34,054 bases of DNA, taken from contig JAUSOK010000052.1 of assembly GCA_030656035.1 (NCBI GenBank), forward strand, positions 1 through 34,054, given 5' to 3'. The stretch is from Syntrophales bacterium (lineage in GTDB: Bacteria > Desulfobacterota > Syntrophia > Syntrophales > Fen-1087). The notes under the pieces were generated by a model that worked only from the letters and a program-made list of their open reading frames with translations, made no database searches and was not told the DNA's origin. Made by a program: the position numbers and the translations under genes. Positions 18,256 through 34,054 of the stretch are shown here, piece after piece; the stretch's first letter is position 1; each line of letters starts with the position of its first letter.

Positions 18256-18281
18256 AAAAAAAGCCGGTATCTTTAACCGGC
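18256..18281 (-). terminator. Terminator-shaped hairpin directly before secA (possible attenuator)
   Basis: Read in the secA direction, GCCGGT, a seven-base loop and ACCGGC are followed immediately by seven T. Then come AAAGGATC and the secA start 12 bases after the T run. Because it lies between the candidate promoter and the gene, it would stop secA transcripts unless the hairpin is prevented from forming. Confidence 0.55.
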
Positions 18282-18327
18282 GTTAACGAAAACGCCACAG
18301 ACGACCTGATATCGGTCGTCTGTGGCG
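18276..18327 (-). promoter_or_regulatory. secA leader: 14-base-pair hairpin and overlapping alternative stem
   Basis: CGCCACAGACGACC (18293-18306) and its exact complement at 18314-18327 make a perfect 14-pair stem with a seven-base loop. In the secA sense, the end of this stem (GGCG, continuing as GGCGTT) can instead pair with AACGCC, which contains the first bases of the terminator stem. The three hairpins are therefore mutually exclusive in sequence, as in attenuators. No leader peptide was seen, since the candidate transcription start falls next to the first stem. Confidence 0.45.
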
Positions 18328-18906: not shown

Positions 18907-18926
18907 AGGAGGTAACGTCAATCTTG
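18907..18926 (+). promoter_or_regulatory. Ribosome site that fixes the TTG start of brxA
   Basis: AGGAGGT at 18907-18913 is nearly ideal and lies ten bases before the TTG at 18924. No ATG or GTG lies at a suitable distance in this frame, so TTG is the likely start. Confidence 0.7.
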
Positions 18927-19571
18927 AACCAAGGTAATAAATTACTTCCTGATCCTTATCGTCTCAGCTTTACATCCGTATCCCTTCGTCCCGATTTGGC
19001 TCGAATTGCTGCCGATGCTTATCTTGCCTGCGGAACGTGGGCAGGTGCGCGGCAGCAGGTGCTCGCAAATAATGCCTTCCAAAGCCGAACAAAGACATCC
19101 CTCCAGAGAATGGAGCGGGAGATCCGTACGCGTCTGGAACTCCTCACGAAGGATCAGATTGCGTTACTTGCCGGGGGTACGAGTGAAGAAAGGGCAGCGA
19201 TGGCATGGCTGGCTGCTACAAAGTACGCCGCCCTGGTCCGCGAATTTGCCGCTGATGTATTGAGAGGCAAGTTGGCGGATTTTGATTTGGTACTTCGGCC
19301 TTCGGACTATAATAATTTCATTGCCGCCAGGCTTCCCTCCCATCCGGAGTTGGGTGAACTGACCGAATCAAGTAGTAGAAAGGTTCGGAATGTTCTGTTA
19401 TTGATGCTCATGGAGGCTGGAATGATTCGAGAGGAAAACGGGGAACGACGGATCACTCGCCCCATACAGACGCAACGGGTCATTGACAGCATCGTCGCCG
19501 ATGATGCACAGTATCTCGCCGGATTCCTATGGTCCGATGAGGAAATCGCCGCCATTCGGAAAGGCAAATGA
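18924..19571 (+). CDS. brxA: BREX protein BrxA (DUF1819)
   Basis: A 215-residue protein of the DUF1819/BrxA family, a small helical, DNA-binding-type BREX component (the DNA binding is family knowledge). Segments supporting the call are YRLSFTSVSLRPDLARIAADAYL near the N terminus, a helical TKYAALVREFAADVLR, SSSRKVRNVLLLMLMEAGMI and the C-terminal ITRPIQTQRVIDSI. It starts at TTG with a strong ribosome site and overlaps brxB by the ATGA arrangement. As first gene of the operon it lies just behind a terminator-like hairpin. Its precise role in defence is not known from sequence. Confidence 0.9.
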   Translation: MNQGNKLLPDPYRLSFTSVSLRPDLARIAADAYLACGTWAGARQQVLANNAFQSRTKTSLQRMEREIRTRLELLTKDQIALLAGGTSEERAAMAWLAATKYAALVREFAADVLRGKLADFDLVLRPSDYNNFIAARLPSHPELGELTESSSRKVRNVLLLMLMEAGMIREENGERRITRPIQTQRVIDSIVADDAQYLAGFLWSDEEIAAIRKGK

Positions 19572-20182
19572 AAAATTCACAGGAACAGCTTTTTCAAATT
19601 CTCAGCCACCCGGACTTCTTGGCGATGAAGGGTTTGGCAAATGAGGTGCCCATTTTCATTCAGACCTACCATCCTGGGGATGAAGATAAGATGGAGCAGA
19701 CCGTCGCCGCCATCATAGCAAGGCTGAGAAAAGAGGGGATTTCTGTGGCCGTCGTTGATCTTTTTGATATGGTCCTCGATCTCCTCTCGTCCTCTGGCCG
19801 CTTTGATAAGGCCATCGAAAGCGAACCCGCCATGCCAAAACGCAAGATGCTGGAGATGCTGAATAACGTGGCTGATCCGAAGACCCGGCTTATCCCCCGG
19901 CTCTCCAAGATCATCGGTGTACCGGACATTAAAGTCAGCCTGATCAAGGGCGTGGGGCATGTCTATCCGTTCCTGCGAACCCACACCATTCTTGAGTCCC
20001 TGCAACCGGCCATGATGAAACATCCCATTGTCATGTTTTTCCCCGGCGAGTACACCCATGAAGAGAGTGGGGCCTCACAGTTACGCCTCTTCGGGCAGCT
20101 TATTGATCCACCTCAGAGCCATAGGTTCACGAGGGCTTACTATCGCGCATTCAATCTCGATCACTATAGGATAACCCAATGA
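19568..20182 (+). CDS. brxB: BREX protein BrxB (DUF1788)
   Basis: This 204-residue protein belongs to the DUF1788/BrxB family, always found beside brxA in type 1 BREX. The family-like C-terminal block FPGEYTHEESGASQLRLFG and the preceding KGVGHVYPFLRTHTILESLQ are visible. No catalytic motif is evident, and it is thought to act as a structural partner in the BREX complex. It is joined to brxA and brxC by four-base overlaps at both ends, which points to coupled translation and matched amounts of the three proteins. Confidence 0.9.
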   Translation: MKNSQEQLFQILSHPDFLAMKGLANEVPIFIQTYHPGDEDKMEQTVAAIIARLRKEGISVAVVDLFDMVLDLLSSSGRFDKAIESEPAMPKRKMLEMLNNVADPKTRLIPRLSKIIGVPDIKVSLIKGVGHVYPFLRTHTILESLQPAMMKHPIVMFFPGEYTHEESGASQLRLFGQLIDPPQSHRFTRAYYRAFNLDHYRITQ

Positions 20183-23100
20183 AAATCCATGAACTCTTCA
20201 GAAAACCCGTGGAACGCCCAATCGAGGGAGTCATCAAAGCGGACGATGATCGCTACCTTCAGACCGAGGTTGAGGAATATGTCATCACCGGTGAAATCCG
20301 AAGGGGGTTGGATGAATTGGCCAACCGTTACCTTAACGAGCCAAACGCCAACGGCGTGTGGATCTCCGGATTCTTCGGTTCGGGGAAGTCCCATCTCTTG
20401 AAGATCCTTTCCCTGGTCTTGGAGAACCGGGCCTTGCCAGGAGGCGAGACCGCCGCCCAGCTCATCCTGCCCAAGATAGACGATGAGATCGTACAGGGAG
20501 ATCTGCGGCTGGCGGCAGCCGTTCCCTCCCGCAGTTTGCTCTTCAATATCGATCAGAAGGCAGATGCAATCGGGGGCGACTCGACCGCGCCCATTCTGGA
20601 GGTATTCGTCAAGGTTCTCAACGAACTGCAAGGATACTATGCGAAGCAAGGACACATTGCCGAGTTTGAGTGCGACCTGGATTCTCGTGGCGAATTGGAA
20701 GATTTCAAAAAGACCTATGCCGACATCAGCAAGCATTCCTGGGAGGAAGACCTCCCCGTCATCGAAACCCTGGAAAACGAGACCTTTGCCAACGCCTACT
20801 CAAAGCATTCCGGAAAAACATACGAGGAGTGTTTGAAACTCTTCGACCGCAAGAGGGATGGCTATAAGGTTTCCATTCAATCGTTTGCCGAGCGGGTAAA
20901 GGCATATATTCAAAGGCAGGTTCCTGGGTTTCGCCTGAATTTCTTCGTAGACGAGGTTGGGCAATTCATCGGGCAGGACTCCAAACTCATGCTCAATCTC
21001 CAGACTGTGACAGAAACCCTTGCCACGGTCTGCAATGGGCGTGCCTGGGTGTTCATTACCTCCCAGGGTGATTTGCAGAAGGTCCTGATCAATTTTCGGC
21101 CAGAACTGCGTCAGGACGTCAGCAAGATCGCCGGACGCTTCAAGACCCAGCTAACCCTTACGAGTGCGGATGTGCGCGAGGTTATCCAGAAGCGCCTGCT
21201 GGCAAAGACGGAAGACGAACCGCCTGTCTTGACGGCGATCTATGACCGCGAACGCGATAACATGCAAACCCTCTTCCGCTTCGGTGACGGTTCGATGGAG
21301 TTCAAGGGGTGGCGGGGCAGCGATGAGTTTTGCGGTTTCTACCCCTTCCATCCTTATCAATTCGATCTTTTCCAGAAGGCCATAGTGCGACTCTCGGAAC
21401 ACGACGCCTTCACAGGCAAGCACACGGCTGTCGGCGAACGCTCCATGTTATCAGTTTTCCAGGATGTTGCAAAGAAGTTGATCAATCAAAATGTCGGCGC
21501 ACTCGCCCCGTTTGATCTGATGTTCGACGGTATCGCGGCCTCTATCCGTGGCGACTTCCAGACCTCCGTCCGCCAGGCGGAGAGGCAGTTGGACAATCCC
21601 GTCGCGAAACGTATCCTCAAGGCCCTGTTCCTTTTGAAATGGGTCCGAGAGTTCAAGGCAACGCCACGCAACATCGCCATACTTCTCATCGATAAGCCGG
21701 AGGTCGAAATCGCGGCCCATGAAAAAGCGGTCCGTGAGGCACTCAACCTCCTCGAAACCCAATCCTACCTCCAGCGGAACGGGGAGTTCTACGAGTTCCT
21801 GACTGACATGGAAAAAGATATTGAGGTTGAGATCAAGAACACTGAGATCGAGGAGTCCCAGCTTATGAAACTCCTCGGCGACATTATTTTTTCAGATGTG
21901 CTCCGCGATCCAAAAATCCGCTATGAAGGCAATTACCAGGACTACACCTATGCCCGGCGTCTTGACGATCAACTGGTGGGCAAGGATGCGGACGTGAGCA
22001 TCAATGTCATCACCCCCGATCATCCAAACCACGACAGCCTCAACGCCTTGATAGCCCAGAACACCGGCAAGGCCGAACTTCTTGCCGTCCTGCCCGCCGA
22101 CAATCGGCTCATCGACGAGGCCCGTCTCTATCTGAAAACTCAGAAATACATCCAGCAGAACACCGGCGCAGGGATCGAGGAAACGCGGCGATCCATTCTC
22201 ACCGAACGTGGTCAGCAAAACGGCAAACGTCGTAGCGATCTACAAGTCCGCTGTACCGAATTGCTCAGCAAGACCCCGCTGTATCTGAATGCGTCAAAGC
22301 TGGAAAACGTAGGCGAAGGAGATACCCGCAACCGCTTCGCCAAAGCCGCCCAGGAACTCATCCGCTTCGCCTATCCGAGTTTGAAGATGCTAAAAGGAGT
22401 CTTTGACGAGACGACATTGTCCAAAACTCTGCTCGACCCCAGCGATCTACTGGAAGGGATTGACCATACCCTGTCTGAGGCAGAACAGGAAATCCTGACC
22501 TATGTTGCCCGCAATCAGAATATCGGGGAGCGGGTCTCCGTGGAGGAGATCATTCGTCAGTTCGGGAAACGGCCCTACGGCTGGTATCCTATGGCTGTAC
22601 TTACTTTTGTGGCGCGTTTGTTCCGTCTCGGGAAGGTGGAGTTGCGCACAACCGACCTCCTGGATGCGCGGGCCGCCCTGGAAGCGCTGAAAAATACCCA
22701 CCAGCGCGGTGCAGTGCGTGTCCGGTTACAGGAACAGTTCAGCCCCGCTACTGTGGCAGCCTTGAAACGGTTCCATCAGGAGTTTTTCGACCAGATCAAC
22801 GATGCCACTGACGCCCGTTCAGTAGCCCAGCTTACATCCGAGATGCTGACCAAGGAAGCCCGAGAGTTGCGAGCGTTGCTTGACCAGCAAAGCCGTTACC
22901 CATTTTTGGGAAATCTCGAACCGGTAATCCGCAGCATCGAGGACTTGGGGGGCAAGTATTTCACCTATCTCCTCAACAACCTGGCCGATTTTCAGGACGA
23001 GTTGCTGACAGCCAAAGGCGATTTCCTTGATCCGATCAAGGCTTTTATGAAGGGGCCACAGCGGAAGGTTTACGACGAAGCGATGACCTTTCTTCGGGAA

Positions 23101-23691
23101 GAGGAAGCCAACTTCGCCGAAGTATCCACTGAAGATATTGCCCCTCTCCGGCTCTTGGCGACATCCGTCGCACCGTTCCGAGGCACTGTCATTCCCGATG
23201 CCAAGGCAGCCGTGACCCGTGTTCGCGCTCTGATCGACGCGAGGCTGGCTGAAGAGCGCCTGCAAAGTATGGCAGTCCTCGAAGAGCATGAGACGAAACT
23301 GAAGACAGTGCCAGAGTTTGCCGGGCTCGACAATGCACAAAAGGCCCAGGTGCTTCAAAAATCTGACGAGATCAAACAAACCTTGCAATCAGCCCGGTTT
23401 ATCAGCGCCATTCGGGATCGTCTGGCCCGTTATACATCAACGGATTATCCGGCCCAACTCACCTTACTGAACCGGTTGGTGACCCCACCTGCTCCCCCCG
23501 GCGGTTACCCTGGAAATGCGGGTGGAGAGCCTCCAAGGGTGGCTGAGCCACGTTTCATACCTGCGACCAGCCTGAAAGCCGAATGCGGCCTGCCGTATGT
23601 CACCACTGAGGCGGATCTCGATAGATGGCTGGCCGCTTTACGCAAAATTGCCCTGGCTGAGATAAAAAAGGGCACACGGATCAGTCTGTGA
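20179..23691 (+). CDS. brxC: BREX protein BrxC (PglY-like large P-loop ATPase)
   Basis: A 1170-residue ATPase of the BrxC/PglY family (DUF6079-type). Walker A is GFFGSGKSHL (64-71 for the core) and Walker B is FFVDEVGQF (Asp258, Glu259). A GRFKTQLTLTSADVREVIQKR segment follows in the AAA-like part, and the long C-terminal half is mostly helical. Near the C terminus (about 1098-1120) a Pro/Gly-rich stretch, PPAPPGGYPGNAGGEPP, looks like a flexible linker before the final about 50-residue block. Type 1 members are usually around 1200 residues, so it is full length. It overlaps brxB by four bases and ends seven bases before pglX. It probably forms the motor of the BREX complex (inference from its ATPase core). 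Confidence 0.93.
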   Translation: MKIHELFRKPVERPIEGVIKADDDRYLQTEVEEYVITGEIRRGLDELANRYLNEPNANGVWISGFFGSGKSHLLKILSLVLENRALPGGETAAQLILPKIDDEIVQGDLRLAAAVPSRSLLFNIDQKADAIGGDSTAPILEVFVKVLNELQGYYAKQGHIAEFECDLDSRGELEDFKKTYADISKHSWEEDLPVIETLENETFANAYSKHSGKTYEECLKLFDRKRDGYKVSIQSFAERVKAYIQRQVPGFRLNFFVDEVGQFIGQDSKLMLNLQTVTETLATVCNGRAWVFITSQGDLQKVLINFRPELRQDVSKIAGRFKTQLTLTSADVREVIQKRLLAKTEDEPPVLTAIYDRERDNMQTLFRFGDGSMEFKGWRGSDEFCGFYPFHPYQFDLFQKAIVRLSEHDAFTGKHTAVGERSMLSVFQDVAKKLINQNVGALAPFDLMFDGIAASIRGDFQTSVRQAERQLDNPVAKRILKALFLLKWVREFKATPRNIAILLIDKPEVEIAAHEKAVREALNLLETQSYLQRNGEFYEFLTDMEKDIEVEIKNTEIEESQLMKLLGDIIFSDVLRDPKIRYEGNYQDYTYARRLDDQLVGKDADVSINVITPDHPNHDSLNALIAQNTGKAELLAVLPADNRLIDEARLYLKTQKYIQQNTGAGIEETRRSILTERGQQNGKRRSDLQVRCTELLSKTPLYLNASKLENVGEGDTRNRFAKAAQELIRFAYPSLKMLKGVFDETTLSKTLLDPSDLLEGIDHTLSEAEQEILTYVARNQNIGERVSVEEIIRQFGKRPYGWYPMAVLTFVARLFRLGKVELRTTDLLDARAALEALKNTHQRGAVRVRLQEQFSPATVAALKRFHQEFFDQINDATDARSVAQLTSEMLTKEARELRALLDQQSRYPFLGNLEPVIRSIEDLGGKYFTYLLNNLADFQDELLTAKGDFLDPIKAFMKGPQRKVYDEAMTFLREEEANFAEVSTEDIAPLRLLATSVAPFRGTVIPDAKAAVTRVRALIDARLAEERLQSMAVLEEHETKLKTVPEFAGLDNAQKAQVLQKSDEIKQTLQSARFISAIRDRLARYTSTDYPAQLTLLNRLVTPPAPPGGYPGNAGGEPPRVAEPRFIPATSLKAECGLPYVTTEADLDRWLAALRKIALAEIKKGTRISL

Positions 23692-23698
23692 GGAAACG

Positions 23699-26600
23699 AT
23701 GAATTTGAACGCTCTCAAGAATTTCGCTCCGAACGTCCGCCGCCAGTTGATCGAAGCCGTCGGACGGAAACTCGATTTCGTCCTCACCGGTGACACGCCC
23801 GACCTGCGAGAAAAGGCGAAACAAAGGATGAGTATCAAGGGGAAGGCGGAAAAGGATCGCCCTGGCCTCATTGAGCGCGTTGCCTACACCTGGTTCAACC
23901 GTCTCGCCGCCCTGCGCTTTCTCGATGCTCGGGGATGGCATCCTTTCCTCTGCCGCGTCATTACCCCAGTTAATGAGGAAGAAACCCAACCGGAAATACT
24001 GAAACTCACCCGCAACGGTGCTCTTCCCACCGAACTTGGCCCATTTACCGATGCTGTCCGGATCAACGACCTCCTCGACGGGCGAATACCATCGGCAGAT
24101 CCCCAGGGGGAGGTGTACCGTCATCTTGTCCTGGCTGCCTGCCGCTATTACCACAATCTTATGCCGTTTCTCTTTGAGGCGCTGGACGACGAGACCGAAC
24201 TTCTCCTACCTGACGACCTTCTTACTGAGCATTCCGTTGCCCAAGGCTTCCGCAGTGCGATCACCGATGGCGACTGCGCCGAGGTGGAGATCATCGGTTG
24301 GCTCTACCAGTTTTACATCGCGGAAAAGAAAGACCAGGTCATGGCTCGTAAGAGCGCTGTGCCTACCGAGGACATCCCCGCCGTCACCCAGCTATTCACG
24401 CCGCACTGGATTGTCCGCTACCTCGTCGAGAACTCCCTTGGCCGCCTCTGGCTACTGAATCGCCCCGGTTCCCGGCTCCGCAAGCATATGCCCTACTACA
24501 TCGAGGGCGAACCCGACACCGGCTTCCTCAAAATCACCAAACCAGAGGAGATCCGTCTGCTCGACCCCGCCACCGGCTCCGGGCACATGCTCACATACTC
24601 GTTTGACCTTCTCTATCTTATCTACGAGGAGGAAGGCCACGCGCCCAGCGAGATTCCCGGCCTCATCCTACGGCATAACCTCTTTGGCCTGGAAATCTGT
24701 CCACGGGCAACCCAGCTTGCGCAGTTCTCCCTCGTCTGCAAGGCTCGTGAGAAATCCAGAGTAGCTTTCCGTAATCCCGTCCAGCCGCAAGTAATGTGCC
24801 TTGAAGATGTAGAAATTGCGTCTCAGGAGATGACCGACTTCCTTCGTCTGCCCAGCCTGTGCGAACTCTTTACGGAAAAGGTCCTGCGTCAGATCCACCA
24901 GTTCCGTGAGAATACCTCGACATTCGGGTCGCTCATTCAGCCTGTGCTGACAGCAGCGGAAATGACCACCCTCAAGTCCCGGTTAGCAATGGTAAGCCCA
25001 GGTGCTGACCTCCTTCTCAATGAAACCCACCGCAAGGTCCTCTGCGCTATCGATCAGGCAGAGATGCTCTCGCAACGCTATCACGTCGTCGTGGCCAATC
25101 CGCCGTATATGGGTAGTGGCGGAATGAACGGGCGGTTGGGGACATGGGCGAAGGACAATTACCCGGACAGCAAATCTGATCTCTTTGCGATGTTTATTGA
25201 GCGTAATCTTGATCTGGTAGTGCAGCAGGGGGCGGTTGCCATGATCACCATGCAGAGTTGGATGTTCCTTTCATCGTTTGAGAAACTTAGAGTTAATCTC
25301 CTTGGAAAAGAAACAATTCTATCTATGGCACATCTGGGGGCAAGGGCATTCGACAGCATCGGCGGAGAGGTGGTTTCGACAACCGCATTCATCTTGGAAC
25401 ATGCGAACCGGCCTGAATACAAAGGTGGATATCTACGACTCGTCGATGGTGATTCCGAAGCCGAAAAACAAGCCCTCCTAAAATCTTCGCTACCCACTGA
25501 CAACTTTCCACTGCCAACCGGTTTTTTCCGTGCATCCACAGCCGACTTTAAGAAAATACCCGGATACCCGATCGCATATTGGCTATCGCCTACAATTAGG
25601 AGAGCGTTCAATAATAAAAAAATAGGCGATTTCTTTGCCGTGAAAGAAGGGTTGGGAACGCGTGATGACAGTCGCTTTCTCAGGAATTTCTGGGAGGTAG
25701 ATCGAATAAAAATCCGGCTTACGGATGAAAATAATAAGTGGGTACCTGTTGATAAAGCCGGGGGATATAGAAAGTGGTTCGGCAACACTTTGACCGTAAT
25801 GAACTGGGAAAACAATGGGGCAGAAATAAAAAACTTTGAGAAGTCCGTCCCAAGAAACACACAATATTTTTTCAAACCAGCAGTATCTTGGGGAAAAGTT
25901 TCGACGGGCAGACCTTCATTTAGGTGGAGACCAAGTTTGTTCGCATTTGTAGATGCTGCTCCATCAGCTTTTGGGAAGGATCTTGAAAAACTTGTTGCCG
26001 CACTCAACAGCAATGCCGTCAGTACTCTTCTGAAGATACAGGGGGGGACAATCAACGTCACTGTTGGTCTTGCTAAAAGTCTCCCGATTCCCGGAGTGAC
26101 GAGTGATGGTAATGCACGTGCCTGCATAGATTTTTGCAAAAAGGATTGGGACTTCTACGAAACCTCGTGGGACTTCAACAACTTGCCGCTGCTGTATCCC
26201 GACTACCGCCAGCAAACGCTTAAAGCCACATACATCAAACTCCGCACCCACTGGCGCGAGATAACTCTGGAGATGCAGCGCCTCGAAGAAGAAAACAACC
26301 GCATCTTCATCGAAGCCTACGGCCTGCAAGAGGAACTGACCCCCGACGTCCCTCTGAACGAAATCACCATGACCTGCAACCCCCATTACCGTTACAGTGA
26401 TAAGAAGAGCGAGGAAGAGCTGGAATCCCTGCTTTTGGCCGACACCTTGAAGGAGTTCCTCTCCTATGCCGTCGGCTGTATGATGGGCCGCTACTCCCTC
26501 GACGCGCTGGGATTGATCCTCGCGAATACCGGGGACACCCTGGAGCATTACCTCGCAAAGGTCGGCAAGCCCTTCGATCAACTCACTTTCACCCCCGATG

Positions 26601-27187
26601 CCGACGGCATCCTTCCCGTCCTTGATGGTGAGTGGTTCGAGGACGACATTGTGGCTCGAACCCGCGACTTCCTTCGCCTCACGTTCGGCGAGGCCACCTT
26701 GGAAGAAAATCTCCGTTTCATCGAGGAATCCCTCGGCAAAGACCTGCGCAAATACTTTCTCAACGACTTCTCCAAAGACCACGTCCAGACCTATAAAAAA
26801 CGCCCCATCTACTGGCTGTTTCAAAGCCCGAAGAAGGGATTTTCCGCCCTCATCTATCTGCACCGCTACACCCGCGACACCGTAAACGTCTTGCTAAACA
26901 GCTATCTACGAGATTACCTGCATAAGCTACGCTCCCGCATTGAGCATCTGGAGCACGTCCAGGCCACCAGCGAAAACGCCCGAGAAAAGACGGCGGCCCG
27001 CAAGGAGAGCGACGTTCTCAAGAGGAACCTCCACGAATGTGAGGAGTACGAGCGAGAGATTATCCTCCCGCTCGCCCAACAGCGAATCGAACTGGACCTT
27101 GATGACGGCGTTAAGGTAAACTATCTCAAATTCGGCAAAGCCCTTGCCCCCATTCCTGGCCTGGCGGCCAAAGAGGAGGACGGATGA
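23699..27187 (+). CDS. pglX: BREX adenine-N6 DNA methyltransferase PglX (type 1)
   Basis: PglX marks host DNA by N6-adenine methylation of a non-palindromic site and is also needed for defence. In 1162 residues the SAM motif LLDPATGSGHML lies at about 286-297, and the catalytic NPPY is at 467-470, followed by MGSGG. The part after the catalytic motif (about 520-810) is where target recognition is expected. Its DNA is markedly AT-richer than either side: 25561-25620 has 25 G/C in 60 and 25681-25740 has 23, against 38 in 24361-24420 and 34 in 26161-26220. This suggests replacement of the specificity part by recombination. GAGGAAA precedes the start. The recognised sequence cannot be predicted from here. 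Confidence 0.95.
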   Translation: MNLNALKNFAPNVRRQLIEAVGRKLDFVLTGDTPDLREKAKQRMSIKGKAEKDRPGLIERVAYTWFNRLAALRFLDARGWHPFLCRVITPVNEEETQPEILKLTRNGALPTELGPFTDAVRINDLLDGRIPSADPQGEVYRHLVLAACRYYHNLMPFLFEALDDETELLLPDDLLTEHSVAQGFRSAITDGDCAEVEIIGWLYQFYIAEKKDQVMARKSAVPTEDIPAVTQLFTPHWIVRYLVENSLGRLWLLNRPGSRLRKHMPYYIEGEPDTGFLKITKPEEIRLLDPATGSGHMLTYSFDLLYLIYEEEGHAPSEIPGLILRHNLFGLEICPRATQLAQFSLVCKAREKSRVAFRNPVQPQVMCLEDVEIASQEMTDFLRLPSLCELFTEKVLRQIHQFRENTSTFGSLIQPVLTAAEMTTLKSRLAMVSPGADLLLNETHRKVLCAIDQAEMLSQRYHVVVANPPYMGSGGMNGRLGTWAKDNYPDSKSDLFAMFIERNLDLVVQQGAVAMITMQSWMFLSSFEKLRVNLLGKETILSMAHLGARAFDSIGGEVVSTTAFILEHANRPEYKGGYLRLVDGDSEAEKQALLKSSLPTDNFPLPTGFFRASTADFKKIPGYPIAYWLSPTIRRAFNNKKIGDFFAVKEGLGTRDDSRFLRNFWEVDRIKIRLTDENNKWVPVDKAGGYRKWFGNTLTVMNWENNGAEIKNFEKSVPRNTQYFFKPAVSWGKVSTGRPSFRWRPSLFAFVDAAPSAFGKDLEKLVAALNSNAVSTLLKIQGGTINVTVGLAKSLPIPGVTSDGNARACIDFCKKDWDFYETSWDFNNLPLLYPDYRQQTLKATYIKLRTHWREITLEMQRLEEENNRIFIEAYGLQEELTPDVPLNEITMTCNPHYRYSDKKSEEELESLLLADTLKEFLSYAVGCMMGRYSLDALGLILANTGDTLEHYLAKVGKPFDQLTFTPDADGILPVLDGEWFEDDIVARTRDFLRLTFGEATLEENLRFIEESLGKDLRKYFLNDFSKDHVQTYKKRPIYWLFQSPKKGFSALIYLHRYTRDTVNVLLNSYLRDYLHKLRSRIEHLEHVQATSENAREKTAARKESDVLKRNLHECEEYEREIILPLAQQRIELDLDDGVKVNYLKFGKALAPIPGLAAKEEDG

Positions 27188-29676
27188 AGCGCATCCACGA
27201 CAGCCTCCGGCAGGTTCTTGGCCGACATCGCCTCGTTTTCTGGTATGACGGTGAGGGAGATTGGGCCAAGGAATTTGAGACTTTTACCGCTGATGACGTT
27301 GAGAAGGTGCGCGTAGAGAATAACGAGTTCGGCGTGAAGGTGCGCATCCTGCGCCATCCAGATCGAAATACGCGGTTTCTGCTTTATTTCCCCAGCCCCC
27401 GGCCAAACGATGCGGACAACTGGCTCCTCGACCTTCTCCTTCAGGGCCATGAATACAAGGCAGACCGGGCCTCTTTGGCGTTGCAGGATACCGGCCTTTC
27501 CTATGACTTCCATCACGTCGTCGAACAGCATCTTCCCTTTTTCAACGCACAGAAACGCATCGAGGCCCTCCGGGGAATCTTGGACAAAGATGATGACGCA
27601 GACGCCGTCCGCCTGAAGATGATGGCCGTCCTGGCTGGGACCGCCCCGGATGTGGATACCCTGCTCCTGCATTTCCTTCGGGAAGCGTCTCTGGCATCGC
27701 TTTTTGACCCTCTGACCGAAGCGCTGGGTCCGGCTGAATTGGTGGGCGACTTCTGGAAGGGAGTAGCAGCGCTTTTCAGCTACACCGCTGATGAACCGAC
27801 GCTTGTGGATTTTGCTGTGAGTCTTTTCCGAGGGACCAATCCATTGGAGACTTCGGCCTCGTTAAACCCCCACGGACGGGTTTTTCTTCAGAGATGGAAG
27901 GACAGCCAGAGTCACGCTGATACTTTCCGGCATTGGTCTACTCGTCTGGAGGCGGATCTTCACGTCGAAGCCCGATTGGAGTCGCTCTCAGACATTACCA
28001 TCATCCTGGATGCGGATGAGTTTCCAGTTTTCGAGAAGAAGATCATTCATTCGCTTTGCCGTTCATTCGAGGCGGGTGCAGGCAAAGAAGCAATCCTTCC
28101 GATCATTCAGCGCCGCCGCCGTTCGTTCTGGTATCCGACCCATGAGCACGGTTATAGAGCCTTGGAGCTGGCAGTGGAATTACGGGAGCTGGTCGCGGGA
28201 GCAGAGCTGACTGTGGGCGCCTTGGATGAAGGTCTTACCCGGTACACCCAAAGCTGGTGGCGGATCGACATGGCCTACCGTCGGTTCTGGTTCCACCTGC
28301 GCCACTATGCACAGACCAATTTGATGGAGAAGACAGCCGCCTGGGTGGAGAAGACCTATGTGAACAATTTTCTTCTTCCCCTGACGGACTGCTGGAGCGA
28401 CCGAATCCGGGAGCTGTCCCGGTGGTCGTCGGAGGTCCTTCCCCCACAAACGGCGTTCTTCGATCGCTACGTGCAACCGTTCCTGGAAAAAGGTCAGAAG
28501 GTCTTTGTGGTGATCTCCGACGCCCTGCGCTACGAGGCGGCCTGTGAATTTGCTGCCACTCTGAGAAATGAGGATCGGTGGACATGCGAAGTGGAGGCTA
28601 TGCTCGGTGCGCTGCCTTCCTACACACAGCTTGGGATGGCGGCACTCCTTCCCGGCAAGACCCGTGAAATAGACGGGTCCACCGGCAACGTGATCTTGGA
28701 CAGTCGCAGCACCATCGGAACACAAAACCGCAGCGAGATCGTCAAAGCCAAGACCAACGGAAGAGGCATCGCCCTACAGGCGGAGCAGTTTCTGGAACTG
28801 AACACCAAGACCGAGGGCCGCGCCCTGATGCGCGATCACGACGTGGTTTACATCTATCACAATGCTATTGACGCCGTGGGGGATTCCGTTTCTACGGAGG
28901 CTCAGACCGTGGATGCCGTCGAGCGTGCTTTTGGCGAATTGATGAGGATTCTCAAGAAAATTGCCAACATCAACGCCACGAATATGATTTTGACTTCGGA
29001 TCACGGGTTCCTCTTCCAGCAGGAGGCCGTGGCTGAAGGCGATATGGCCACCCTGCCGCAGGCGACGGAATGGACCTACAGAAACCGGCGTTTTGCTATC
29101 GGGACGAAAGTGCAAAACGGTCCAGGAGTGAAACTCTTCCTGGCTGCCGATCTCGGCTTGACCGGGAAATGGACGGCTGCCTTTCCTCTTTCCCTGGGAC
29201 GCTTCCCATTGCAGGGATCTGGAAAACGATATGTTCATGGTGGGATAACACCCCAGGAGGTCGTTGTGCCCGTACTACGCATCCACAAGGCACGCGCCAG
29301 TGACACCAGCCGGGTTGAGGTGGATGTGCTCCGGATGCCGTCGAAAATTACGACCGGCCAGGCCAGTTTCGCACTTTATCAGGAGCAGCCGGTTGATGAC
29401 AAGATTCTTGCGCGACAACTTCGGATAGGGTTGTTCTCCAAAGATGGTGCGCCCCTCTCTGAGGTCCGTAGCGTTTCCTTTGACTCTGGCGACAGCGAGG
29501 CCCGACGGAGAGAAACGAATATAGTTCTCGCGCTCTCCCGGAACGCTGACGCTTTCAATAACCAGGAGATCGAACTGCGCATGGAAGAGACATTGCCGGG
29601 GACCAATCAGTCGGTCGTTTACAGGAGTTATACACTCAGATTACAAAAACCATTTGGGAGCGATTTTGATGAATGA
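27184..29676 (+). CDS. pglZ: BREX protein PglZ (BrxZ), alkaline-phosphatase superfamily
   Basis: PglZ is the common signature protein of all BREX types. This 830-residue form matches type 1 in length. The PglZ domain lies at about 430-680, with the metal-binding motif VFVVISDALRYEAA (Asp near 446) and the second metal site ILTSDHGFLFQ (TSDHGF at 604-609), in the arrangement of alkaline-phosphatase-like enzymes. A C-terminal beta-rich segment begins after HGGITPQEVVVPVLRIHKA. The true substrate is unsettled, and nuclease or phosphodiesterase activity has been considered for the family. The start overlaps the pglX stop by four bases with a GGAGGACG ribosome site, and its end overlaps brxL by eight bases. 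Confidence 0.95.
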   Translation: MKRIHDSLRQVLGRHRLVFWYDGEGDWAKEFETFTADDVEKVRVENNEFGVKVRILRHPDRNTRFLLYFPSPRPNDADNWLLDLLLQGHEYKADRASLALQDTGLSYDFHHVVEQHLPFFNAQKRIEALRGILDKDDDADAVRLKMMAVLAGTAPDVDTLLLHFLREASLASLFDPLTEALGPAELVGDFWKGVAALFSYTADEPTLVDFAVSLFRGTNPLETSASLNPHGRVFLQRWKDSQSHADTFRHWSTRLEADLHVEARLESLSDITIILDADEFPVFEKKIIHSLCRSFEAGAGKEAILPIIQRRRRSFWYPTHEHGYRALELAVELRELVAGAELTVGALDEGLTRYTQSWWRIDMAYRRFWFHLRHYAQTNLMEKTAAWVEKTYVNNFLLPLTDCWSDRIRELSRWSSEVLPPQTAFFDRYVQPFLEKGQKVFVVISDALRYEAACEFAATLRNEDRWTCEVEAMLGALPSYTQLGMAALLPGKTREIDGSTGNVILDSRSTIGTQNRSEIVKAKTNGRGIALQAEQFLELNTKTEGRALMRDHDVVYIYHNAIDAVGDSVSTEAQTVDAVERAFGELMRILKKIANINATNMILTSDHGFLFQQEAVAEGDMATLPQATEWTYRNRRFAIGTKVQNGPGVKLFLAADLGLTGKWTAAFPLSLGRFPLQGSGKRYVHGGITPQEVVVPVLRIHKARASDTSRVEVDVLRMPSKITTGQASFALYQEQPVDDKILARQLRIGLFSKDGAPLSEVRSVSFDSGDSEARRRETNIVLALSRNADAFNNQEIELRMEETLPGTNQSVVYRSYTLRLQKPFGSDFDE

Positions 29677-31831
29677 TGAACCTTTACCCAATTCGGACGA
29701 AACACCGGAACCTCTGGATCTGACACCGGCCAAACTTAGCACTCTTGATCGGAAGATTCTTGAGTATTTTCCAGGGCTGGTGGTTCGTAAAGACCTGACC
29801 AAGGGGCTCAAGCAGAACGCAATCGTCCCGACCTATGTTCTTGAATATCTTCTGGGCCAGCACTGCGCCACAGATGATACCGCAGCACTTGAAGCGGGAC
29901 TGGAAAGTGTCCGGAAGATACTGGCAAGGCACTACGTGTACCGGAACCAGTCAGAACTGGTGAAATCCACGATCAAAGAAAAGGGCAACCACAAAATCAT
30001 TGATAAAGTCACTGTGGAGTTGAATGATAAGGGTGGCTACTACGAGGCTAAGTTTTCTAACCTTGGGCTGACAAAGGTGCCTGTTCCTGATGATTTCGTT
30101 CGTCGCCATCCGAAACTACTCGTCGGTGGCATCTGGTGCATTACGGACTTGACCTATGAGATTACGGAAGACCGGAAGTCCAGCCCTTGGCAGATCGACG
30201 CGCTGAAACCGATCCAGGTATCGCGAATTGATTTCGAGGAGTTCGTAAAAGCCCGTAGCCATTTCACATCGGATGAATGGTTGGGCCTCCTGATGCAGAC
30301 AATCGGTTTCAACCCGGAGGTCCTGAGCCGCCGGGCAATGTTCCTTTTTCTCCTCCGCCTCATTCCCTACTGCGAACACAATTACAACCTCATCGAGTTG
30401 GGGCCGAAAGGAACGGGGAAATCTCACATCTACGCAGAGTTTTCTCCGAACGGCATCCTGATTTCAGGTTCCGAGGTCACGACGCCGAAACTCTTCGTGA
30501 ACAATTCTAACGGTCGCATAGGCCTTGTAGGATACTGGGACTGTATCTGCTTTGACGAGTTCGCAGGCAAAGATAAAAAGGTGGACAAGGGTCTCGTGGA
30601 CATAATGAAGAACTACATGGCCAACAAATCCTTTTCTCGCGGTATCGAACAGTTGAGCGCCGAGGCTTCGATGGTCTTCATGGGCAACACGAAGAAATCC
30701 GTCCCTTATATGCTCAAGCATTCCCATTTCTTTGAACCGCTTCCCGATGAATATATCGACTCTGCCTTTCTGGATCGCATCCATGCTTACAGCCCCGGTT
30801 GGGAATCCCCCGTCATCAGCAGCGAACTCTTTTCCGCTGGTTACGGGTTCATTGTGGATTACCTTGCAGAGACCCTCAAGCACCTGCGCAACGAAGATTT
30901 TACCGGGAACTATAAAGCGCACATGGAAATCGCTTCAGAATTGTCCACCCGCGACGAGACGGGCATTGAAAAAACCTTCTCGGGCCTGATGAAACTTATC
31001 TATCCCGATGGTAATTGCAACGAGGCGGAGTGTGAGGAGATGCTGCGGTTCGCGATGGAGGAGCGGCGTCGGGTTAGAGAGCACATCCTGCGCATTGACG
31101 ACACGTTCGCGCCGCATGATTTCATTTATCGCCGTATATCAGACGGAAAGCTGCTGACGGTCCTCACGCCGGAAGAGGTTCAGTACCCCGCCTTTTTTCG
31201 GAGACCATCCAAAGAGGCATCGGAAGAAGAAGCAGGCACGCGAGAGGGTGCTGAACAAACAGCGGGAACAGAAGACCACTCTGCACCTGACCCAGCAAAG
31301 CCCACTTCTTCCGGCGGCGTTTCATTGGGCGCTGGCCAGGTATCAGTTCCCCTCCAAGGTCACTTGACCATTCCCGAAAATGCCCGTGGCTGGAGTTATC
31401 GCCGTATCTTTGCCAACCACTTACAAGGGGCGCGAAGAATCATCGTCCAAGACCCTTACATAAGGCTTTTCTTTCAGGTCCGCAATCTTATGGAATTTCT
31501 GCAAATGGTCCATGAACTGGTGCCGGAAGGGGATGAGATGGAGGTTCATCTGGTAACACAGTCCGATCCCGGCACATGTGAAAAGCAAGAGGAGTTTCTC
31601 CGTCAGATTGTGGAATCCTTCACCGGCTCCCGTGTGAGTTTTTCTTGGGAACTGAGCCACAGCCCCAACTTTCATGCCCGCAGTGTAGAAACCGACACAG
31701 GCTGGAGAATCTCCCTGGATCGCGGTCTCGACATGTTCCAGAAGTTTGAAAGCGGCGCGTTCTCTCTCGAAGCAGGTGTCCAGGAAGCCCGGATGATGCG
31801 GGGGGCTGAGATCACATACCTGAAGCAATGA
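29669..31831 (+). CDS. brxL: BREX AAA+ protein BrxL with a C-terminal MIT_C (PLD-like) domain
   Basis: The first about 530 of 720 residues are a standard BrxL: N-terminal domain (LDRKILEYFPGLVVRKDL), then an AAA+ core with Walker A GPKGTGKSHIYAEF at about 245-252, SGSEVTTPKLFVNN, Walker B CICFDEFAGK and an AFLDRIH segment. A low-complexity linker (about 515-560, rich in Glu, Ala, Thr and Pro) follows. The last about 155 residues do not resemble the Lon protease domain of classic BrxL. They match MIT_C, the phospholipase D-like end of MITD1-type proteins: GWSYRRIF, IIVQDPYIRLFFQVRNLMEF, VHLVTQSD, then FHARSVETDTGWRISLDRG and LDMFQ. The ATG at 29669, with GGGAG upstream, is preferred over a TTG at 29654. 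Confidence 0.9.
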   Translation: MNDEPLPNSDETPEPLDLTPAKLSTLDRKILEYFPGLVVRKDLTKGLKQNAIVPTYVLEYLLGQHCATDDTAALEAGLESVRKILARHYVYRNQSELVKSTIKEKGNHKIIDKVTVELNDKGGYYEAKFSNLGLTKVPVPDDFVRRHPKLLVGGIWCITDLTYEITEDRKSSPWQIDALKPIQVSRIDFEEFVKARSHFTSDEWLGLLMQTIGFNPEVLSRRAMFLFLLRLIPYCEHNYNLIELGPKGTGKSHIYAEFSPNGILISGSEVTTPKLFVNNSNGRIGLVGYWDCICFDEFAGKDKKVDKGLVDIMKNYMANKSFSRGIEQLSAEASMVFMGNTKKSVPYMLKHSHFFEPLPDEYIDSAFLDRIHAYSPGWESPVISSELFSAGYGFIVDYLAETLKHLRNEDFTGNYKAHMEIASELSTRDETGIEKTFSGLMKLIYPDGNCNEAECEEMLRFAMEERRRVREHILRIDDTFAPHDFIYRRISDGKLLTVLTPEEVQYPAFFRRPSKEASEEEAGTREGAEQTAGTEDHSAPDPAKPTSSGGVSLGAGQVSVPLQGHLTIPENARGWSYRRIFANHLQGARRIIVQDPYIRLFFQVRNLMEFLQMVHELVPEGDEMEVHLVTQSDPGTCEKQEEFLRQIVESFTGSRVSFSWELSHSPNFHARSVETDTGWRISLDRGLDMFQKFESGAFSLEAGVQEARMMRGAEITYLKQ

Positions 31832-32074
31832 GGGGCCAATCAGTTGCTCAATAATACCAATGATAGCCGGGGATTTTTCTCCTCCCAGCCCCGCACCACC
31901 TGGCATGTTGGCGGCCCTTGATACAATTGTAGTGGGCAGAAAGCCTGTTTGAGATAAAAAAATGGCGGAACTCTAACTTAACCTGTGGTACAAGTATCGG
32001 GGGAAGTCACTTGGAAAATTCGCCTTATCGAAGAGAAATTCATGAAACGCATATGAGATCCGGAGGGCGTGTAA
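31832..32074 (+). other. Spacer between brxL and the AAA/DUF4276 pair
   Basis: 243 bases without a supported gene. A short open stretch starting at a GTG (31985-32056, 23 codons) has no ribosome site and is not called. No strong terminator or promoter was found, so read-through from the BREX operon is possible. A good ribosome site, GGAGGG (32062-32067), precedes the next gene. Confidence 0.5.
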
Positions 32075-33181
32075 ATGGCTAATTCACTGGACAAGTTGAC
32101 AATACGTGGGTTCAAGTCCATCCGGTCCTTGGAGAATTTTGAACTCAAAGACCTGAACATCTTCATTGGCGGCAACGGCGCCGGTAAGAGCAATCTGGTT
32201 GAATTCTTTCGACTGCTGCGAAAGGTCATTGACGGCAACCTTGATGAATACATTCGCTCTGGCGGCGGAATCAGCGATTTCCTCTTCAATGGCCGGAAAG
32301 TGACGTCACAAATCGAATTCGAAGCACGTTTTGGTGTTCGCGGTTATCGCTTCAATATAAAGTCTGGTCCATCGGAAAATTGTTTGCTTACAGATGAAGC
32401 CCGTTACTACAAGCTTGGACAAACTGGTTGGTGGAATCTGGGTGACAGCCCAGACGGTAAATCGTTGCTGGTAAAAGAAGCAAAGGGTGATTCATCGGAC
32501 AGCAAATACAGCAGGCCGGTTTATGATGCGATTTCTTCGTGGCAGATCTATCACTTCCATGATACCAGCGCCACGGCAGCAATGAGGCACTATGAAATAA
32601 TCCAGGACAATAAAGTGTTGCGTTTTGATGCTTCCAACATCGCTCCTTATCTGCTGCGACTCAAAACCGAGCACCCAGATGCGTATCGGGAAGTTCTGAA
32701 TTCGGTACGGCTGGTGATGCCCTTTTTCGATGATTTTCTTCTGGATGTGACAGAATTTGGAGAAAAACAGAAAGTTAATCTTTCCTGGCGGCAAAAGGGC
32801 TCGGATTACCCCATGCAGCCTTATCATTTTTCCGATGGTTCTATCCGTTTCATTTGCCTCGCAACAGCGTTGCTTCAACCGAAGCCGCCTTCAACAATCA
32901 TTATTGATGAGCCCGAACTGGGTCTGCATCCGTCCGCAATCGCCATCTTAGCCGAACTGATCCAAAACGCTTCCAAGCGGACGCAATTGATCGGGGCCAC
33001 ACAATCCCCCGCTCTGATAGATTATTTCGGCGTTGAAGATGTAATTGTAGTCAACCGCAAAGATGGTGCTTCAACCTTTGAGAGACTGCATGAAAAGGAC
33101 TTTAACGTGTGGCTTGAAACCTATTCTGTCGGCGAACTCTGGAGCAAGAATGTCATTTCCGGAGGACCTGTCTATGAGTGA
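32075..33181 (+). CDS. SMC/ABC-type AAA ATPase (AAA_21-like), defence-module candidate
   Basis: A 368-residue ATPase of the RecF/OLD/SMC-like group. The N terminus ITIRGFKS-type strand (LTIRGFKSIRSLENF) leads to Walker A GGNGAGKS at 32-39. The ABC signature is FSDGSIRF, Walker B is TIIIDEPELGLHP (Asp278, catalytic Glu279), and the switch histidine position is Gln in ATQSPALIDYF, a variation known in this group. There is no coiled-coil arm and no Toprim domain in the protein itself. The partner gene starts inside its last codons (eight-base overlap), so the two are surely made together. In OLD, Gabija and PARIS systems such ATPases sense phage and control a nuclease-like partner. A similar role is inferred here, not shown. 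Confidence 0.85.
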   Translation: MANSLDKLTIRGFKSIRSLENFELKDLNIFIGGNGAGKSNLVEFFRLLRKVIDGNLDEYIRSGGGISDFLFNGRKVTSQIEFEARFGVRGYRFNIKSGPSENCLLTDEARYYKLGQTGWWNLGDSPDGKSLLVKEAKGDSSDSKYSRPVYDAISSWQIYHFHDTSATAAMRHYEIIQDNKVLRFDASNIAPYLLRLKTEHPDAYREVLNSVRLVMPFFDDFLLDVTEFGEKQKVNLSWRQKGSDYPMQPYHFSDGSIRFICLATALLQPKPPSTIIIDEPELGLHPSAIAILAELIQNASKRTQLIGATQSPALIDYFGVEDVIVVNRKDGASTFERLHEKDFNVWLETYSVGELWSKNVISGGPVYE

Positions 33182-33860
33182 TTATGTTGAAATCGTGGCT
33201 CTTGTGGAGGGGCCTACCGAAAAAATCTTCATAGCGGACATATTGGTGCCCTACCTGGCTGGGCATAGTGTTTTTATGACACCGATTATTATTTCCAAGC
33301 CGGGTCAGAAGGGCGGGGATGTCAGATTTGCTCGGGTGAAGAATGATATCGAGCTTCATCTGAAGCAACGGCGAGACACCTATCTAACGCTTTTTGTGGA
33401 TTACTATGGGATTAAAAGCGATTGGCCAGGGTTAGAAGAAGCGAAACGGCAATCCACTCCAAGTAAAAAAGCAGAAAAAATCAATAGTGAAACAAAAGCC
33501 CAAGTGAACAAGCTTTTTGGAACCTGTGGTTCGGACAGGCGATTTATTCCCTACGTCGCCATACACGAATTTGAAGCGTTGCTTTTCAGTGAACCACAAA
33601 AACTCGCCGAGCTGTTACATGTATCCCCGTCCAAAATTAACAAGATTCTTGCAGAATGCGGTGAACCAGAGAATATCGACGATTCACCAATGAGAGCGCC
33701 ATCCAAGAGACTGGAAGACCTTTCGGATCAATTCAAAAAGACATTGACGGGTATTGCGATTGCCAAAGCAATTGGCTTGACGAAAATTCGAGAGAGTTGT
33801 CCAATCTTCAATGGTTGGCTAACGGCTGTTACTAAGTTGAAAGGCGCATCCCATGGTTAA
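33174..33860 (+). CDS. DUF4276 protein, Toprim-like partner of the AAA ATPase
   Basis: A 228-residue DUF4276 family protein. The N terminus IVALVEGPTEKIF carries the Toprim-like glutamate (Glu12), KPGQKGGD follows, then the metal-site-like strand LFVDYYGIKSDWPG (Asp76) and HEFEALLFSEP (His131, Glu132, Glu134). These are the conserved points of the family, which is widely found beside AAA_21 ATPases. The frame is open 37 codons further upstream, but the ATG at 33174, behind GGAGGACC, gives the family N terminus and overlaps the ATPase stop. The acidic residues suggest a metal-dependent nuclease, by analogy with OLD-family Toprim domains and with AriB of PARIS, but no activity is proven. Confidence 0.85.
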   Translation: MSDYVEIVALVEGPTEKIFIADILVPYLAGHSVFMTPIIISKPGQKGGDVRFARVKNDIELHLKQRRDTYLTLFVDYYGIKSDWPGLEEAKRQSTPSKKAEKINSETKAQVNKLFGTCGSDRRFIPYVAIHEFEALLFSEPQKLAELLHVSPSKINKILAECGEPENIDDSPMRAPSKRLEDLSDQFKKTLTGIAIAKAIGLTKIRESCPIFNGWLTAVTKLKGASHG

Positions 33861-33939: not shown

Positions 33940-34054
33940 CCCGGTTCGGAACATGATAGAGGTCCGTCATCAAGGAATGAGAAAGGTTGATACGGATCAT
34001 CATGAGAGACACGGATTTATTTCAGTTGGCATTGGGTTTGACACCGCCATGGCA
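33934..34054 (+). mobile_element. Left end of an ISL3-type insertion sequence
   Basis: The transposase start at 34002 resembles ISL3-family proteins. The element's left end is placed at GGGTAACCCGGTTCGG (from 33934), because the sequence changes character there and ISL3 elements commonly begin with GG(G/C)T. The AT-rich eight bases just before (AAATGTAT) would fit the eight-base target duplication of this family. The right end lies outside the window, so neither the inverted repeat nor the duplication can be confirmed. Confidence 0.6.
34002..34054 (+). CDS. ISL3-family transposase, N-terminal fragment cut by the window edge
   Basis: Only 17 complete codons are present, reading MRDTDLFQLALGLTPPW, which is the characteristic N terminus of ISL3-family transposases. 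The rest continues beyond the window. The catalytic DDE residues cannot be checked, so it is unknown whether the element is intact. Confidence 0.7.
   Translation, partial: MRDTDLFQLALGLTPPW

Follow-up and report, generated by a model that had tools for sequence, protein, structure and literature searches.

A HEC-01 ATPase-DUF4276 pair preceded by a putative methyltransferase relic lies behind a BREX operon in a Syntrophales bacterium

Results

The locus and its two-gene unit

The window, by which we mean the whole stretch of DNA analyzed, is a single contig of 34,054 nt. It contains a type I BREX operon with its full gene set, brxA, brxB, brxC, pglX, pglZ and brxL, in order (18924-31831), followed on the same strand by an ABC-type ATPase gene and a DUF4276 gene (Table 1). 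The original prediction placed this pair behind the operon with an eight-base overlap and without a clear terminator in between, and both points hold: the two reading frames overlap as described, and the intergenic gap contains no terminator-like site. The only promoter-like match in the gap (31900-31927) is at the level expected by chance for the region scanned. At the upstream boundary of the BREX locus, the minus strand carries two strong terminator-like hairpins (18263-18327). The C-terminus of BrxL is a PLD-like domain (31388-31825; PF16565, E 1.7e-34), consistent with published BrxL-HKD nuclease fusions (PMC12839542). The contig ends 194 bp past the DUF4276 gene in a repeated element, probably an insertion sequence, that has a second copy on contig C172 (98% over 141 bases) and, elsewhere in the same genome, three partial matches; we take the frame that begins at 34003 to resemble the start of a transposase. 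No known RNA family was found near the pair, and no tRNA gene was found in the window.

Table 1. Features of the BREX operon and of the gene pair behind it
Feature	Position	Strand	Description or basis
brxA	18924-19571	+	PADLOC, Pfam
brxB	19568-20182	+	PADLOC, Pfam
brxC	20179-23691	+	PADLOC, Pfam
pglX	23699-27187	+	PADLOC, Pfam; 4-bp overlap with pglZ
pglZ	27184-29676	+	PADLOC, Pfam
brxL	29654-31831	+	PADLOC BrxL (E 1.9e-298), Pfam; start codon uncertain
brxL-ATPase gap	31832-32074	+	243 bp
Scar	32012-32074	+	Putative decayed last 20 codons and stop of a type III-like methyltransferase: WKIRLIEEKFMKRI*DPEGV*
ABC-type ATPase gene (HEC-01A)	32075-33181	+	368 aa; PADLOC, Pfam, conservation
DUF4276 Toprim-like gene (HEC-01B)	33174-33860	+	228 aa, ATG at 33174; PADLOC, Pfam, predicted structure
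Overlap of ATPase and DUF4276 genes	33174-33181	+	8 bp, ATGAGTGA
Repeated element at contig end	33861-34054	.	Same-genome repeat matches

The pair is of a kind already known, the candidate defense system HEC-01A/HEC-01B of PADLOC (PADLOC-DB 2.0.0), which corrects the original view that it was not identical to any known system. The HEC-01A model PDLC04175 matches the ATPase with E 9.9e-137 (Pfam AAA_21, E 2.8e-39) and the HEC-01B model PDLC04188 matches the DUF4276 protein with E 4.5e-73 (Pfam DUF4276, E 1.7e-53), so that the adjacent HEC-01A and HEC-01B genes by which PADLOC defines the system are both present, with matches of nearly full length. The HEC candidates are said to go back to a 2024 preprint by Payne. 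That preprint is cited in PMC12255303, and the acronym stands for Hma-embedded candidate, in reference to genes found between those of the Hma (helicase, methylase, ATPase) system (PMC12111858, PMC12988326). HEC-01 itself receives a bare mention in PMC12724379; the literature searched yielded no phage assay for HEC-01, no description of its mechanism and no paper on DUF4276. By description, a close counterpart is HEC-04/IbfA, which likewise combines an ABC ATPase with a TOPRIM domain but as one fused protein; HEC-04 was identified by the same embedding approach, has phage phenotypes and is reported to defend E. coli (PMC12111858).

Three known systems were considered and rejected. The pair resembles PARIS in gene order, an ABC ATPase gene preceding a Toprim gene, with AriB among the best structural matches of the DUF4276 protein (see below), but the DUF4276 sequence matches no AriB model at E 0.001, only HEC-01B models, and the AriA model PDLC02980 matches the ATPase within the general AAA_21 range (E 2.8e-32), where the HEC-01A model is far better. 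Gabija was set aside because the ATPase and Toprim parts are two ORFs and no helicase gene lies between brxL and the contig end, and single-chain OLD because the two parts are on separate ORFs.

The two genes form a conserved unit. Scanning 84,980 species genomes gave 583 DUF4276 loci, of which 80 were kept; loci from this and the other searches are cited by L numbers. An ATPase homologue lies upstream of DUF4276 in 75 of these 80 loci from other genomes, and a start codon fits exactly at the offset of -8, corresponding to an 8-bp overlap, in 54 of the 75 pairs. Among the five loci with no upstream ATPase, three begin at a contig edge (L046, L052, L087) and one has 98 bases of upstream sequence (L074), leaving L115, with 3.2 kb upstream and no ATPase, as a true DUF4276 orphan. 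An independent HMM search within the same phylum gave a similar picture, with an ATPase in 29 of the best 30 loci, window included, and the thirtieth beginning at a contig edge. In Candidatus Electrothrix (L075) both proteins are fused into one of 598 aa. The arrangement exceeds chance and the two genes travel together. The window pair is under purifying selection, with dN/dS values for the two genes of 0.12 and 0.14 against L040 and of 0.14 and 0.08 against L039. One ATPase, on contig 56 of Xenorhabdus lircayensis (L093), is split over two frames, and an intact pair lies on contig 67 (L061).

Judged by its sequence, the ATPase is an ABC-type enzyme with intact motifs, which we take to be a Walker A motif at G32-S39, an SDG signature at S253-G255 and a Walker B motif with D278-E279 (DEPELGLHP). 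In the region of T309-S311 (32999-33007), a Gln is found in all 75 of the 75 ATPases that have a residue at the H-loop position, presumably where many ABC ATPases carry the H-loop His.

Predicted fold and active site of DUF4276

The predicted structure of the DUF4276 protein (pLDDT 88.7, pTM 0.86) supports the proposal that it is Toprim-like. Its best PDB matches are class 2 OLD Toprim domains (6nk8, Z 8.9; 6njv, 8.7; 6njw, 8.6; 6njx, 8.5; rmsd 4.4-4.7), followed by AriB of PARIS (8ux9, Z 7.8, rmsd 4.3) and GajA of Gabija (8j4t, Z 6.9, rmsd 4.2). The assignment draws on the top rows being consistent with one another, not on any single strong score: the first six all belong to OLD, AriB or GajA, with 160-179 residues aligned, and the best unrelated row has Z 6.8. 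Foldseek also ranked OLD domains first, with E values of 1.7e-3 and 2.8e-3, none reaching 0.001, and a PDB sequence search gave chance-level matches only (best E 0.024). Taken with the conserved acidic residues described below, DUF4276 is predicted to be a nuclease with a class 2 OLD-like Toprim fold. For the L075 fusion, the DUF4276 part was modeled at above 90 pLDDT and the ATPase part mostly below 70, and we therefore did not use that model to describe an interface between the two.

The acidic residues of DUF4276 occur in the order seen in class 2 OLD (E400, E404, D455, T506/E508 in BpOLD). In BpOLD, metal A is bound by E400, D455 and D457 and metal B by E404, T506 and E508, with K562 (PMC6755086). 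Order and spacing, rather than superposition, make E12, E16, D76 and E132/E134 the probable equivalents of these ligands, and metal B may be bound by E132/E134. The residues named in the original prediction, Glu12, Asp76 and Glu132/134, are conserved: in a set of 29 rows, comprising P0002 and 28 loci found by an HMM search that used no sequence pattern, E12, D76 and E134 are invariant (29/29) and position 132 is Glu or Asp throughout (29/29). The larger 81-row alignment is less suited to positions 131-134, whose conservation there is partly built in by the HE[FY]E element of the locus scan pattern, an effect of which the 29-row set is free. Other residues are not general in the 29 rows and are lost in distant members, namely E16 (19/29), K178 (16/29) and K189 (19/29). 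In 79 of 81 DUF4276 rows the Toprim DxD motif has Tyr or Phe in place of its second Asp, which we regard, at the level of sequence, as a real departure from the OLD site; together with the division into two separate proteins it distinguishes the pair from class 2 OLD and Gabija. Two alignments, A6 and A8, were left out because MAFFT had placed DUF4276 rows over the ATPase part, in A6 as judged by row identities.

A relic of a methyltransferase gene precedes the ATPase

The TAA that ends the scar abuts the ATG of the ATPase gene, and the scar contains a GGAGG that can serve as the ATPase ribosome-binding site. Because its reading frame is broken by a stop, we read the scar as a relic. A conserved 50-bp stretch before the ATPase had been considered as a promoter or leader; this was dropped in favor of a gene remnant. 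The encoded peptide matches the C-terminal residues of type III-like methyltransferases at L108, L190, L191 and L192. At L108, such a methyltransferase gene lies 10 bp before the pair. A scar-like peptide also precedes the ATPase in L039, L042 and L044. DNA similarity between the window and L040 spans 32033-33830, covering the pair plus roughly 40 bp ahead of it; similarity to L042 and L044 begins upstream at 32021-32022.

To score this resemblance, a matrix was built from four methyltransferase ends, hand-aligned at their C-termini, after the idea had been formed on L039, L042, L044 and the window. Across 67,990 six-frame positions of the window it scores 33.8 at 32012 and 17.2 at the next best position, and it picks the equivalent place in L039, L042 and L044, whereas L040 and L050 give no such result. 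Scores of at least 20 precede 6 of 99 ATPases (L108, L039, L044, the window, L088 and L042); L108 is among the four sources, so its own score is not evidence, and without it 5 of 98 ATPases reach 20 or more versus none of 1994 random stretches. In L088 (Planctomycetota), a 249-aa ORF upstream of the pair (97-846) has a methyltransferase-like end and is perhaps a longer mod remnant.

A decayed methyltransferase end lying directly at the ATPase start codon suggests that the window copy probably came from a mod-pair-res operon. Its arrival at BREX would have been separate from that of five pairs embedded in BREX loci elsewhere (L104, L160, L164, L166, L171), and the tree agrees, placing the window pair and those five in different clades (100/100). 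This tree omits the short rows L046, L078, L080 and L087, the duplicates L163 and L172, and the distant loci L175, L179, L180, L182, L184, L186 and L189; ten further distant loci with no match to the close-family HMM were never in it.

Relatives sit in restriction operons, plasmids and ordinary surroundings

DUF4276 is patchily distributed, occurring in 69 of 395 genomes of the phylum and absent from the one same-genus and one same-family genome searched. The viral_contigs collection gave 15 pattern matches with one true relative, a fragment, and 50,697 phage records gave none. Two gammaproteobacterial pairs used as DNA queries had no match in E. coli genomes.

Several relatives are nested in type III operons. 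On Aeromonas plasmid pE31A (L192) the order is SNF2-mod-ATPase-DUF4276-res, with 1-bp overlaps, whereas in E. coli pEC316_2 and Priestia p6_CACC119 mod is followed directly by res without the pair. The same nesting recurs in L120, L121 and several gammaproteobacterial chromosomes, and pE31A (NZ_CP067418.1; L120, L192) has DUF4276 at three sites, of which two or more lie within distinct type III-like operons. Among nearest neighbors, type III methyltransferases account for 7 of 61 upstream genes and type III restriction enzymes for at least 5 of 72 downstream genes, and no type III gene was seen among 110 control genes in the best 25 of 44 families, a listing that may have missed a single weak one. 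The control regions came from 8 genomes, the PADLOC tallies cover the best 25 of 73, 112 and 44 families, and the upstream tally uses 61 of 62 genes, the broken ATPase piece of L093 being left out.

A second recurrent place is directly ahead of pglZ-brxL. In L160, L164 and L166 the pair lies immediately 5' of these genes (L164 is cut at the contig edge). The order is brxC, a 279-aa gene, pglX, pair, pglZ, brxL in L171 and pglX, an AbiD-like gene, pair, pglZ, brxL in L104 (Myxococcales). The pglX/pglZ slot that holds the pair in L171 is empty in the BREX operon of the window. The BREX locus of L104 (2334-15236) additionally stacks a Septu PtuA-like ATPase ahead of pglZ-brxL. DUF4276 and BrxL occur together in 13 of the 395 genomes, within about 3 kb of each other in five, window included; with the window excluded, linkage is found in 4 of 12 genomes versus 0.13 expected within 10 kb (P 6e-6, using rounded genome sizes).

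The pair is not specific to BREX, being found also in type III operons, on plasmids and at housekeeping sites. BREX lies within the flanks of one (L104) of the 80 nearest relatives, many of whose flanks are short, and none was seen beside the nearest relatives of the window (L039-L044, L047), whose flanks are partly short. These nearest relatives come from several phyla and look like lone insertions among housekeeping-like genes, a label judged partly by eye from protein beginnings, and many neighbors across the family are ordinary genes. The pair is also present on two plasmids with no restriction-modification system listed beside it: pTR11_2, which is small and mobilizable, and one from P. 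salmonis that has terminase and holin genes. Downstream of the pair in L039 are an SbcD-like gene and a large P-loop gene. Six Chloroflexota loci (L097, L105, L109, L110, L114, L117) have a gene of ~600 aa downstream on the opposite strand; these are probably the six CitMHS/TrkA-C members in the tallies, and the pair seems to occupy one fixed place there.

Discussion

The position of the pair raises the question of what an OLD-like ATPase and a predicted nuclease would be doing behind a BREX operon. We think there is about an even chance that it is a mobile HEC-01 module, made of an OLD-ABC sensor and a Toprim nuclease, that backs up restriction-type systems or BREX by a PARIS-like logic without being PARIS. 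The pair would once have resided inside a mod-pair-res operon and would have left it carrying the final mod codons, in which the ATPase ribosome-binding site lies; it would then have spread between genomes and come to lie behind brxL. In PARIS, Ocr is detected by AriA, whereupon AriB cleaves tRNA (PMC12839542, PMC12409363), and by analogy the HEC-01 ATPase would hold and release its partner: it would assemble, keep the Toprim nuclease inactive and respond to some mark of infection, most likely the blocking of the neighboring methyltransferase or restriction complex by a phage protein, upon which the activated nuclease would cut nucleic acid, either tRNA or DNA, and stop the infected cell. We infer this trigger, target and outcome, and prefer a blocked methyltransferase as the trigger because an adenine methyltransferase, Mod or PglX, is common to the restriction systems that host the module and because Ocr binds PglX (PMC11341690). 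In Salmonella, PARIS itself sits inside a BREX locus, and no activating condition was found for it there (PMC11341690). Against a backup role we count that the window copy is not internal to the operon but lies 243 bp behind brxL with its own ribosome-binding site, and that its nearest relatives, in flanks that are partly short, showed no BREX and have neighbors that look like housekeeping genes.

A free-standing abortive-infection module of OLD/PARIS type, with a trigger of its own unrelated to BREX and adjacent to brxL by chance in a defense region, is a serious alternative that we consider probably wrong. The nearest relatives of the window stand alone, the DNA homology to L040 is limited to the pair and the short stretch before it, the pTR11_2 and P. 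salmonis plasmids have the pair by itself, and the window falls in another clade than the five BREX-embedded pairs; against it speak placements before pglZ-brxL and between mod and res that recur far above chance. The plasmid copies, together with the patchy distribution and the tight gene overlap, are also what one would expect of a toxin-antitoxin or addiction unit whose ATPase keeps the nuclease in check and whose main effect is to stabilize its carrier element, a toxin-like logic also seen in AriA/AriB ("AriA antitoxin" in PDB molecule names). That the pair is embedded in restriction operons and is nearly lacking in the viral collections searched points instead to defense and makes addiction as the main role quite improbable, although the two ideas are compatible.

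An ABC ATPase and a Toprim protein also occur together in RecF/RecR. A RecFR-like accessory of DNA repair or recombination, with a RecF/SMC-like ATPase and a Toprim partner, would suit the few repair-related neighbors, such as the SbcD-like and P-loop genes of L039, but a patchy distribution, restriction-operon contexts and top structural matches to OLD, AriB and GajA render it very improbable.

The preferred reading, a mobile module that backs up restriction-type systems or BREX, departs in part from the original prediction of a backup for BREX. What stands is that placement before pglZ-brxL recurs and that the general idea of OLD-ABC ATPases with TOPRIM partners as BREX backup is in print (PMC12839542); what does not stand is a role specific to BREX, given the type III, plasmid and housekeeping sites. 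Mostly housekeeping contexts had been named as grounds for rejecting the prediction, and such contexts prevail in the immediate clade of the window, though not across the whole family. The OLD-ABC/TOPRIM effectors of PMC12839542 embody the same idea and the same class of neighborhood, and neither "DUF42..." nor HEC appears in its main text. The pair is conserved and looks functional, and to the original prediction this analysis adds its family name, the fold evidence, the recurrent place before pglZ and, as a new finding, the scar. Relatives of the pair are nested in restriction operons, in contrast to the window copy, which is not embedded and carries a methyltransferase relic.

We speculate further, while thinking it unlikely as a whole, that HEC-01 guards adenine methyltransferases and is nomadic. 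Stationed beside Mod in type III systems and beside PglX in at least one BREX system, it would detect phage DNA mimics or inhibitors taking hold of the methyltransferase and fire its Toprim nuclease, and it would hop from one unrelated restriction system to another as a cassette of two genes, retaining the end of its former methyltransferase gene as a ready ribosome-binding site. If the preferred reading of a mobile module is right, a backup defense cassette moves between unrelated restriction systems and leaves a readable molecular scar. Moreover, one sensor over both type III restriction-modification and BREX would imply a shared trigger, an anti-methyltransferase protein, that can be sought. 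For the family, DUF4276, a domain of unknown function, gains from the predicted structure a likely fold and a likely active site.
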